DNA from: Halomonas fontilapidosi
GTDB taxonomy: Bacteria; Pseudomonadota; Gammaproteobacteria; Pseudomonadales; Halomonadaceae
Reading direction: 5' to 3'
Length of the DNA: 64,000 nucleotides
Assembly (NCBI RefSeq): GCF_014192285.1
Contig: NZ_JACHXQ010000001.1
Coordinates: 310,001 to 374,000 of the forward strand
A program made the translations under genes and the position numbers. Positions within the stretch are counted from its first letter, which is position 1. Each line of letters starts with the position of its first letter. Under the pieces are notes generated by a model that did no database searches, was not told the origin of the DNA, and saw only the letters and a list, made by a program, of their open reading frames with translations. Below, piece after piece: positions 5,376 through 55,506 of this stretch.

Positions 5376-5439
5376 ACCGCCAAGAGTCCTGCGCTGACAG
5401 GCCAGGGCTATCGCAGATGGAAGTAACGCTTGCGGCACT

Positions 5440-5545
5440 TCCGGCGACAGCTCTGCGGGGAGGCGCTGTAAACCCCTCCTTGGGCGCTACCGATGCCATC
5501 CCTGGCATAGGACCTCCCCTTCGACCTGTCCCCGGCGCCTCTCGC
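5440..5545 (+). repeat. dispersed intergenic element, copy 1 (covarying hairpin)
   Basis: This stretch matches the reverse complement of 55318-55422; in a 51-bp core starting at 5462, 46 bases agree. It contains a perfect 6-bp hairpin, ATGCCA-TCCC-TGGCAT at 5493-5508. In the second copy the same hairpin reads ACGCCA/TGGCGT, a compensatory change. GAGGCGC (5460-5466) can also pair with GCGCCTC (5535-5541) to close the element. It lies between rraA and the GDPD gene and encodes nothing obvious. Confidence 0.75.
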
Positions 5546-5638
5546 TTCGGGTAACTGCGATTGCCCTGGCTGCAGGCCGTTGCCGGTGGCGGGCAGGCGA
5601 TGTCATGCTGATGTCACGCTCCCGTCATACGCCTGCCC

Positions 5639-16959: not shown

Positions 16960-18162
16960 TCAGTTATTCTCATCGCCTTCCAGGACTTCGGCCTGTTGCT
17001 CAGCAGCACCGCCCATGTCGCCCTGCTCAGCCTGGGTATCCTGCTCGGCGGCGTCATCACCGCTGCCCTGCTGAGCCTGGGCATCTTGCGCGGCGGCTTC
17101 ACCATCGCCGCCTTGCTGAGCCTGAGTGTCCTGCTCGGCGGCTTCACCACTGCCGTCAGCCTGCTGGTCAGCAGCACTCTCTTCGGCAGCCGCGTCGTCA
17201 GCCTGCACGCTCTGCTCCAGGCGAGACAGCTCGTTGCGCCAGGTCTCGAGCTGACCTTCCAGCCGCTCGAGCTGGGACTGGCGAGATTCCACCTGAGACT
17301 CGATCTCGGCTACCTCTTCGCGACCGAGCTTGATGGCGAGTTCGAGATCCTTGAACATTTCGCGAGCCTGGACGACCTCGGACCGGGCCTCCTCCAGTTC
17401 ACCGCGAGTCGACTCCAGCGCCTCATTCGCCTCGTTGCGGCTGGCCTCGAGCTCGCTGATCTCCTGCTGGAGCGCATCGCGCTGCTCCTGCATGGTCGCG
17501 ATCTCGTCGTTGATGCCGGCCAGAGTCTCTTCGGCTGATGCAATTTCTTCCTGCAGGCCCTGGAGTTCGGCCCGCGCCTCGTCGCGCTCGGCCATCGCGT
17601 CACTGCGCTTTTGCTCGGCCTGCTGGCGGGCTTCTTCGGCCTGCTGGCGTTCCTCTTCAGCGGCCTGACGAGCCTCATCGGCCTCCTGACGCGACGCTTG
17701 AGCCTCATCGCGGGCCTGGGCAGCCTGCTGCTGCTGCTCCTGGAGGTTGGCGAGCGCCTCTTCGGCCTCGGCAATGCCGGCCTGACGGGTATTCAGCTCA
17801 CCCTGGGCGGCCTCTACCGCGGCTTGGACCTCCTCCAGTTCCGCGCGGGCTTCGGACTCCTGCTGCTGAGTCGTCGCGAGTTCAGACTCGGCGGTCTGAA
17901 GCTGCTGATCGAGCTCGCTGCGCTGCTCTGCCAGTTCATCGATATTCCCGGCGGCACTCCGCAACTCCTCAGCGCGACCTGTCAAGGCTTCATTCTCGGC
18001 CTCAAGGTTCTCGAGTTGTGCCTGCAGCGATTCGCGGGCCTCGTTGCTGGAACTGACGCTGGACTGGGCAATTAACGCCCAGATGATCGCAACCACCGCC
18101 ACGGCAGCCAGGCCCTTGACGCGGTTGTCCTTGAATAGCTCACTCATCGACGAATCGGCCAT
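16960..18162 (-). CDS. membrane-anchored coiled-coil protein with C-terminal 15-residue repeats
   Basis: I do not recognise a named family for this 400-residue protein. Residues ~17-36 form one transmembrane segment (GLAAVAVVAIIWALIAQ) after a short charged N-terminus, so the body is probably periplasmic. Residues ~40-320 are a near-continuous heptad coiled coil rich in Glu, Gln, Ala and Arg. The last ~70 residues are low complexity, with three 15-residue repeats around AAEQDTQAQQG, ending in an acidic tail. The start is ATG 18162 (GAGGG ~9 nt upstream); ATG 18147 is an alternative. It is alone between apbC and arfB, with a terminator. A structural role at the envelope is only a guess. Confidence 0.75.
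   Translation of the reverse strand: MADSSMSELFKDNRVKGLAAVAVVAIIWALIAQSSVSSSNEARESLQAQLENLEAENEALTGRAEELRSAAGNIDELAEQRSELDQQLQTAESELATTQQQESEARAELEEVQAAVEAAQGELNTRQAGIAEAEEALANLQEQQQQAAQARDEAQASRQEADEARQAAEEERQQAEEARQQAEQKRSDAMAERDEARAELQGLQEEIASAEETLAGINDEIATMQEQRDALQQEISELEASRNEANEALESTRGELEEARSEVVQAREMFKDLELAIKLGREEVAEIESQVESRQSQLERLEGQLETWRNELSRLEQSVQADDAAAEESAADQQADGSGEAAEQDTQAQQGGDGEAAAQDAQAQQGSGDDAAEQDTQAEQGDMGGAAEQQAEVLEGDENN
17021..17155 (-). repeat. 45-bp in-frame repeats inside the coiled-coil gene
   Basis: Three tandem 45-bp units encode 15-residue repeats (variants of EAAEQDTQAQQGGDG) near the C-terminus. The units diverge by several bases each, so they are older than the perfect 8-bp array at purN, but they keep the frame. 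Confidence 0.8.
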
Positions 18163-25227: not shown

Positions 25228-26927
<1,700 letters not shown>

Positions 26928-26931
<4 letters not shown>

Positions 26932-55292: not shown

Positions 55293-55317
55293 TCATCACT
55301 AATCAGCCTGCCCTATC

Positions 55318-55422
55318 GCGAGAGGCGCCGGGAAAAGGTTGTAGAGGGGGTCCTACGCCACGGATGGCGTCGGTAGCGCCCAGGGAGGGGTTCACAGCGC
55401 CCCCGCGAAAACCTGTTGCCGG
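55318..55422 (-). repeat. dispersed intergenic element, copy 2 (covarying hairpin)
   Basis: This is the inverse copy of 5440-5545, lying between phhA and phhB. Its hairpin ACGCCA-CGGA-TGGCGT (55355-55370) differs from copy 1 by a compensatory base-pair change. The copy splits an otherwise tight operon, so it was probably inserted after the operon formed. Confidence 0.75.
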
Positions 55423-55506
55423 ATCAGCCTCGGAGGCCATCACCCCGTGCGACCTTCATGACCGATCACCCCTGACGAAGATTTTTCGAGACTATAAGGA
55501 GATACC

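Follow-up and report, generated by a model that had tools for sequence, protein, structure and literature searches.

Why should a small intergenic sequence occur twice, in inverse orientation and 50 kb apart, and keep the same hairpin with different bases? The question is raised by a stretch of 64,000 nucleotides from Halomonas fontilapidosi (the window), in which a first-pass annotation, made from the letters alone, had described such a pair. The inverted pair is real: positions 5440-5545 (copy 1) and 55318-55423 (copy 2) align at 84% identity over 106 nt, copy 2 scores E = 1.1e-26 when the genome is searched with copy 1 as query, and the hairpin named by that annotation is, as it had noted, intact in both copies with differing bases (ATGCCA/TGGCAT in copy 1, ACGCCA/TGGCGT in copy 2). 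The answer we favour, at a probability of about 0.6, is that the element is a putative CsrA-binding RNA with two sites, dispersed by transposons, of which one sub-class is an ISAs1 MITE. On this view a mobile repeat, itself non-coding, would conserve an RNA domain, in which an interrupted long stem is predicted to bear a three-way junction and two hairpins, with loops A-N-G-G-A-N closed by C-G. The features of the two copies, including matches to a covariance model (R1) and to a model of the inner junction (R2), are as follows.

5393 to 5402, unstranded: left target-site duplication of copy 1, decayed, GCTGACAGGC, read from the sequence (ungapped 6/10 match to the right copy, better with one indel).
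5403 to 5416, plus strand: left terminal inverted repeat of copy 1, CAGGGCTATCGCAG, identical to the ISAs1-element end over the first 14 bases of that end.
5429 to 5546, minus strand: folded core of copy 1 (R1 match L141:2043-2160, 130 bits; R2 match too).
5476 to 5481, minus strand: P3 hairpin loop of copy 1, AAGGAG, closed by C-G (sequence; site count, L038).
5498 to 5503, minus strand: P4 hairpin loop of copy 1, AGGGAT, closed by C-G (sequence; site count, L038).
5555 to 5568, minus strand: right terminal inverted repeat of copy 1, CAGGGCAATCGCAG, with one mismatch.
5569 to 5578, unstranded: right target-site duplication of copy 1, decayed, GCTGCAGGCC, read from the sequence.
55298 to 55307, unstranded: possible left target-site duplication of copy 2, ACTAATCAGC, low confidence (hand-placed, 7/10 match to 55461-55470).
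55317 to 55434, plus strand (RNA strand): folded core of copy 2 (R1 match L111:1311-1428, 129.5 bits).
55360 to 55365, plus strand: P4 hairpin loop of copy 2, ACGGAT, closed by C-G (sequence; site count, L040).
55382 to 55387, plus strand: P3 hairpin loop of copy 2, AGGGAG, closed by C-G (sequence; site count, L040).
55391 to 55395, plus strand: conserved bulge TTCAC of copy 2 (cross-family alignment).
55461 to 55470, unstranded: possible right target-site duplication of copy 2, ACCGATCACC, low confidence (paired with 55298-55307).

Copy 1 (5403-5568) has the 166-bp MITE form with both ends present, and its proposed RNA strand (minus, with two ANGGAN loops) is antisense to both adjoining genes. 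The terminal repeats of copy 2 are eroded; its RNA strand is co-directional with phhA and phhB, the start of phhB lying 72 nt downstream. Scanned against Rfam at gathering threshold, the window shows no match where the element lies.

A genome-wide search with R1 finds about 27 copies in the 3.6-Mb genome (26 at E ≤ 0.01, a 27th at 0.014). Among the 24 other genomes of the genus searched, 23 contain 13-72 R1 matches at E ≤ 0.01, counts that may include a few opposite-strand matches of the same copy, while one genome of 2.9 Mb has none at that threshold. Exact core matches occur, among the matches listed, in Halomonas, Billgrantia, Onishia, Salinicola, Litchfieldella and Modicisalibacter. That the named hairpin (P4) is kept is true of most copies and not of all: across the 27 it is intact in 21, carries an insertion of ~80 bp in its loop in three (L055, L056, L057) and is lost or broken in three (L050, L053, L054). 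Judged by these copies, the check that the first-pass annotation had offered for its own refutation does not refute it. Six copies have the sequence of an extra small hairpin between P1 and P2, one of them being truncated. At the rpsO-pnp spacer the same site holds a long form in L464 (genome G013) and a short form in H. fontilapidosi (L039), and gain or loss of the ~80-bp insert may therefore happen at a fixed site. Two further arrangements were seen: three tandem core copies at ~200 bp spacing (L086, G034), and tandem repeats of ACAGGGCTATCCC adjoining a truncated copy (L173, G015:C2:20582).

The fold is bigger than had been described, comprising an outer stem (P0), stems P1 and P2, and hairpins P3 and P4. 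The closing stem, which had been suspected, belongs to it: in a 35-pair structure laid on 18 uninterrupted copies from H. fontilapidosi, 95.9% of pair cells hold standard pairs, compared to 87.3% in shuffles. Changes on both sides of a pair affect 19 of the 35 pairs (9.0 in shuffles), upholding the earlier proposal that structure, and not just sequence, was kept; the covariation score is 0.308 (0.147 in shuffles). None of 500 shuffles reaches the observed paired cells, two-sided changes or covariation score, and every measure drops when pair partners are slid, although the count of further pair types shows no excess (29 against 29.8). In an alignment of 19 core sequences from four families, 17 of 20 pairs show two-sided changes, the 20-pair structure having been drawn by hand from the alignment on which it was tested. 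Paired changes are also seen in place, for instance within P0 at hom-thrC and within P4 at L230/L067; conversion or re-insertion may be their source, and template-switch correction between stem arms could produce paired changes without selection. Thermodynamic folding of copy 1 gives z = -3.6 for the RNA strand and -1.5 for the other; the strands of copy 2 give -1.1 and -0.8. A comparison of G-U with A-C favours the RNA strand weakly in two model-selected sets (65 to 42, p = 0.03), whereas a BLAST-selected set of 18 copies leans slightly the opposite way (7 to 9). Repeat, fold and loop pattern are read from sequence, and on that footing the structure is well supported.

If the element is mobile, then its sites should be occupied in some species and empty in others. 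This is what is found: a copy is present at 2 of 30 phhB loci and 1 of 30 rraA loci (H. fontilapidosi counted in each), the remaining 28 and 29 having no full copy within 1.5 kb; one weak partial match lies elsewhere in a locus of this set. Together with the very strong signal of two-sided changes, this bears out the suspicion of a small, structured, mobile element. For a sub-class the means of movement can be specified. Some copies have longer arms around the core, which terminate in inverted repeats, CAGGGCTATCGCAGTT; a perfect 10-bp duplication, TACACTGTGT, stands outside the ends of L036/L008, with perfect 10-bp duplications also at L178, L182 and L194. These features were counted in 150 genus copies, taken as the best-scoring listed model matches and therefore leaning to well-folded copies; opposite-strand duplicates, lengths outside 110-122 (which removes all long forms), identical copies, copies without 120-bp flanks and loci L084-L086 were left out. 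At exactly -26/+22 from the core, eight of the 150 have a 10-bp duplication at ≥ 9/10 identity, compared to at most one copy at any offset in each of three flank-swapped controls, and the MITE form is thus 166 bp long (26 + 118 + 22). Terminal repeats matching at ≥ 11 of 16 positions are present at both ends in 22 copies, at one end in 17 and at neither in 111.

A pattern search for the end located two complete elements of 1196 bp between such ends in G007. In the one whose whole sequence was read, the 10-bp duplication, GGCTGCCACG, is perfect, and a 363-aa ISAs1-family transposase is encoded (NF033564, E = 4.9e-118). The sub-class thus has 16-bp ends in common with a full-length IS, and a target duplication of fixed length, 10 bp; as earlier suspected for the element at large, these copies look mobile, and their ends and duplications fit a transposase of the ISAs1 family. 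Such a transposase would act in trans on the common 16-bp ends of the 166-bp sub-class, and its action on MITE ends would yield the 10-bp target duplications. Among 61 genomes of the genus, intact copies of the transposase occur in G007, which has two, and pieces of it in G065 (90-91% identity), all remaining matches being 41-43% identical. H. fontilapidosi has the ISAs1 element as a truncated left end, at L180 (G000:C1:473623); a second, CAGGGCAATCGCAC-like end stands directly before it. A MITE commonly outlives its partner element. Mobility, as judged from these sequence comparisons, is well supported; transposition in trans is our inference.

An IS200-like tyrosine transposase (RAYT) moving the element as a REP or REPIN would likewise account for a palindromic, intergenic repeat, and GTAG, a hallmark of REPs, precedes one of the hairpins. 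Yet Y1_Tnp has no match in the H. fontilapidosi genome nor in 13 of the 30 other genus genomes searched, and none of 21 Y1_Tnp loci contains a copy at E ≤ 0.1. A RAYT gene flanked by the repeat was not found in H. fontilapidosi or the 30 genus genomes, and we rejected this origin as very improbable.

The ISAs1 route explains only a minority of copies, because 115 of the 150 are without ends or duplication signal. These 115 are conserved from the very edge of the core inwards and practically not at all beyond it, with terminal repeats, duplication signal and residual conservation all absent. The proposal that they are merely decayed 166-bp MITEs is, as the whole story, unsupported, both because the expected end regions of 26 and 22 bp hold practically no information and because the net inserted length varies between sites (compared to an empty relative, 146 to 214 at five of eight H. 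fontilapidosi sites, and 118, 63 and -31 at the others). Nor do the end-less copies reveal a fixed duplication that would speak for the core moving by itself; in one copy, L041, a 10-bp direct repeat is present at other offsets. End-less copies may be very old, with only the core kept, or may have spread in another way.

Retention at orthologous sites was considered as proof of function and is weakened by two observations. Same-orientation pairs at a shared site (n = 44) are 87.3% identical in the core and 74.7% in 50-bp flanks, but random pairs of copies already reach 82.0% in the core, and in a further 25 pairs the two copies at a site face opposite ways; many sites have thus likely seen re-insertion, inversion or conversion. 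The leuD-leuB spacer holds opposite orientations in different species (L044 and L240 against L247, L280, L287 and L087), and its element is invertible or repeatedly re-inserted.

Such findings raise the alternative of a MITE or palindrome with no regulatory role at all, parasitising the ISAs1 transposase (elsewhere some other) and keeping its stem because a hairpin or cruciform aids transposition, or through template-switch correction of the arms. The terminal repeats and 10-bp duplications of the sub-class, and the 25 locus pairs in opposite orientation, are what it would lead one to expect. That the core is kept even in copies without transposon ends is harder to accommodate, and the loops and strand considered below tell further against it; on balance we regard it as rather unlikely.

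Two C-ANGGAN-G sites are present on the RNA strand of 22 of the 27 H. fontilapidosi copies, one in four copies and none in one, so that the 22 have paired ANGGAN hexaloops closed by C-G as in CsrA-bound RNAs. Across the genus the positions C, A, GGA and G are each kept in 162-163 of 163 P3 loops and in 157-162 of 162 P4 loops, in copies chosen by a model trained on such loops and with four (P3) and five (P4) of other loop length set aside; the N positions vary freely, except that the last N of P4 is T in 147. All six of the long forms examined lack the P4 loop and carry a new C-ANGGAN-G hairpin in the insert, so each long form still has two sites. Neither the fixed ANGGA letters and closing C-G beside variable N, in both loops, nor the rebuilding of the second loop is predicted for a repeat that serves only its own transposition. 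By sequence, the pattern is that of the CsrA/RsmA recognition hairpin (the RsmE ANGGAN hexaloop). The CsrA SELEX consensus is given as RUACARGGAUGU, beside the RsmE hexaloop, in PMC7652899, and GUACAGGGAUGU, found in other genomes (e.g. L494, L501), fits it. A csrA gene is present in H. fontilapidosi (G000:C3:110108-110263, E = 1.4e-26).

If the element acts as RNA, then its orientation relative to genes should not be random. Only three of the 150 copies fall inside genes called from codon usage, by a caller that reproduces four window genes included in its training set. Calls were checked against Pfam for 30 of the 36 called neighbours in H. fontilapidosi (rraA, phhA and phhB were scanned separately, and thrC via the adjoining locus), and all 30 match on the called strand. 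In tandem contexts the ANGGAN strand is sense in 79 of 116 copies and antisense in 37; with orthologous sites merged the figures are 48 of 67 and 19 (p = 5e-4), and for H. fontilapidosi by itself 11 and 4 (p = 0.12). Such a bias is a further feature not expected of a repeat without a regulatory role, although copy 1, antisense to its neighbours, counts against the reading we favour. In the sense class the core lies a median 32 bp from the upstream stop and 54 bp from the downstream start, in spacers that include hom-thrC, leuD-leuB, accC-prmA, parE-parC, rpsO-pnp and phhA-phhB (gene names inferred from protein families); sense sites are probably often between genes of an operon. For 22 loci in other families, a cruder gene caller gave six sense and seven antisense, a result that neither supports nor settles the bias, since the same caller placed only 70 of the 150 genus copies and gave 10 to 13 for them.

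Placement a median 32 bp behind stop codons, between co-directional genes, would also suit a hairpin of the ERIC or YPAL kind that acts only on mRNA processing or stability, through RNase III or as an exonuclease barrier and independently of CsrA; YPAL possibly influences the stability of upstream transcripts, according to PMC2229807. A plain barrier, however, needs neither conserved loops nor the TTCAC bulge, and we think this explanation improbable. Returning to the CsrA-binding RNA, the steps would be these: the right strand is transcribed, usually as a spacer between co-directional genes; the two hairpins together hold one CsrA (RsmA) dimer; the bound protein alters the adjoining mRNA, by way of translation or stability of the next cistron; and tens of copies, summed, soak up CsrA. 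Loops and context in the sequence make CsrA binding of the element RNA, with a regulatory effect, the reading we infer as most likely, transcription included.

The first-pass annotation had suggested that the element may be specific to its lineage, and here it was wrong. Copies in the 118-bp form are those of the genus and its relatives, but the inner core goes further. Following up weak R1 matches in other families brought up loci where a junction like this one sits on stems of quite another kind, the ANGGAN loops being read on the strand opposite to R1; in the 19-sequence alignment AGC, the loops and TTCAC are nearly invariant. R2 matches 53 of 274 gammaproteobacterial genomes (H. fontilapidosi included), or 47 of 222 genera, with a best E ≤ 1e-8 in 44 of the 53 by hand count; up to 18 candidates were scored per genome, and copy numbers per genome are therefore lower bounds. 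CsrA is present in 49 of the 53 R2-positive genomes and in 19 of 21 negative ones, and since both mostly have it, its presence does not discriminate; in one positive genome, G269 (98% complete), CsrA was not found.

Surroundings of the core differ between these genomes. TATACC-type ends, detected by pattern, flank 11 of 14 copies in G322 on both sides, and perfect CAGCAGCCTGTCGGACTT ends are present in two of three copies in G140. In G162 (L539-L548) and G312 (L549-L555) nearly perfect long palindromes, differing per copy, stand under the same conserved cap, and G156 copies lie in similar palindromes. The stems of G162 and G312 change between copies yet stay paired; near-perfect stems of this kind, in spite of differing sequences, are a point for the alternative of a palindrome without a regulatory role. 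Tentatively, and at somewhat less than even odds, we suggest that across Gammaproteobacteria mobile elements of unrelated kinds may time and again have carried a two-site CsrA-binding RNA domain as cargo, repeatedly wiring operons into the Csr network and loading it with sponge sites, some core-gene sites in Halomonas now being part of gene control. As carriers we propose elements with ISAs1-type ends for Halomonas, with TATACC-type ends for G322 and with CAGCAGCCTGTCGGACTT ends for G140; in other genomes the carriers would be palindromes that have no ends in common.

Several known systems resemble the element in part. Sponge RNAs (CsrB, CsrC, RsmX/Y/Z) also have paired GGA hairpin loops, but the element has two sites per copy and is dispersed between genes. 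ISAs1-family MITEs have terminal repeats and a target duplication in common with an ISAs1 element; unlike them, the element carries a conserved RNA domain, and relatives of its core elsewhere sit in other ends. The conserved cores of ERIC and Correia/NEMIS are not known to be related to that of the element. They too are small intergenic palindromes with size variants (PMC2229807). TwoAYGGAY (RF01731) has two hairpins with AYGGAY-type loops and a long stem, and was proposed to bind CsrA by motif matching (PMC4333381); its best score, however, is 32 bits (L084, in another family) against a gathering threshold of 43, with no match in three genus loci at E ≤ 10 or in 20 loci at E ≤ 0.1, and, unlike the element, it is not called mobile in the consulted text of that paper.

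YPAL/RU-2 of Yersinia comes close in its hairpins: the 168-nt RU-2 as printed in PMC2759123 reads C-AAGGAT-G and then GCCTAC-ATGGAT-GTA-TTTAC-GGC, with TTTAC-GGCG where the element has its bulge. By eye the core hairpins are the same, while a partial fold of RU-2 gives the first hairpin and not the second. YPAL is multicopy and mobile (PMC2759123, PMC2229807), but has other outer arms, no ISAs1 ends and target duplications of 3-26 bp, as far as the consulted portions of these papers go. That the element, YPAL and TwoAYGGAY have such hairpins in common also contradicts specificity to one lineage. Ysr224 (RF02770), a temperature-responsive sRNA among the most widely annotated (PMC9029176), scores 20.7 bits at copy 1 and 17.9-24.5 in the first set of loci; its gathering threshold of 70 is never reached, the best score being 40.5 bits, in other genera (the later Rfam scan covered 20 of the 22 loci of other families). 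In the consulted portions of the open-access literature we found no published CsrA link for YPAL, Ysr224 or any bacterial MITE: CsrA binding is proposed for TwoAYGGAY in PMC4333381 and not in the corresponding portions of PMC2759123, PMC2229807, PMC2267715, PMC9029176, PMC7657543 or PMC8144298, and mentions of MITEs in the consulted text of the Rfam 12.0 paper concern plant and eukaryotic ones. A search of the same open-access literature found no published account of palindromic intergenic repeats in Halomonas.

CsrA/Rsm is a global regulator. If the reading is true, mobile DNA would have, in repeats that deliver pairs of CsrA sites into operons ready for use, a direct way to rewire post-transcriptional control, and several structured repeats of obscure role (YPAL, TwoAYGGAY and the Halomonas element) would have a common reason.

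Two other features of the window were recorded. At 26499-26784 (plus strand) Rfam 5_ureB_sRNA (RF02514) matches at 121 bits, antisense to a 567-aa ORF (25228-26931, minus strand); although 5_ureB_sRNA is among the most widely annotated sRNAs (PMC9029176), the match is probably one of urease coding homology rather than an sRNA. At 16975-17153, three tandem units of 45 bp, 66-71% alike, lie inside a minus-strand ORF.
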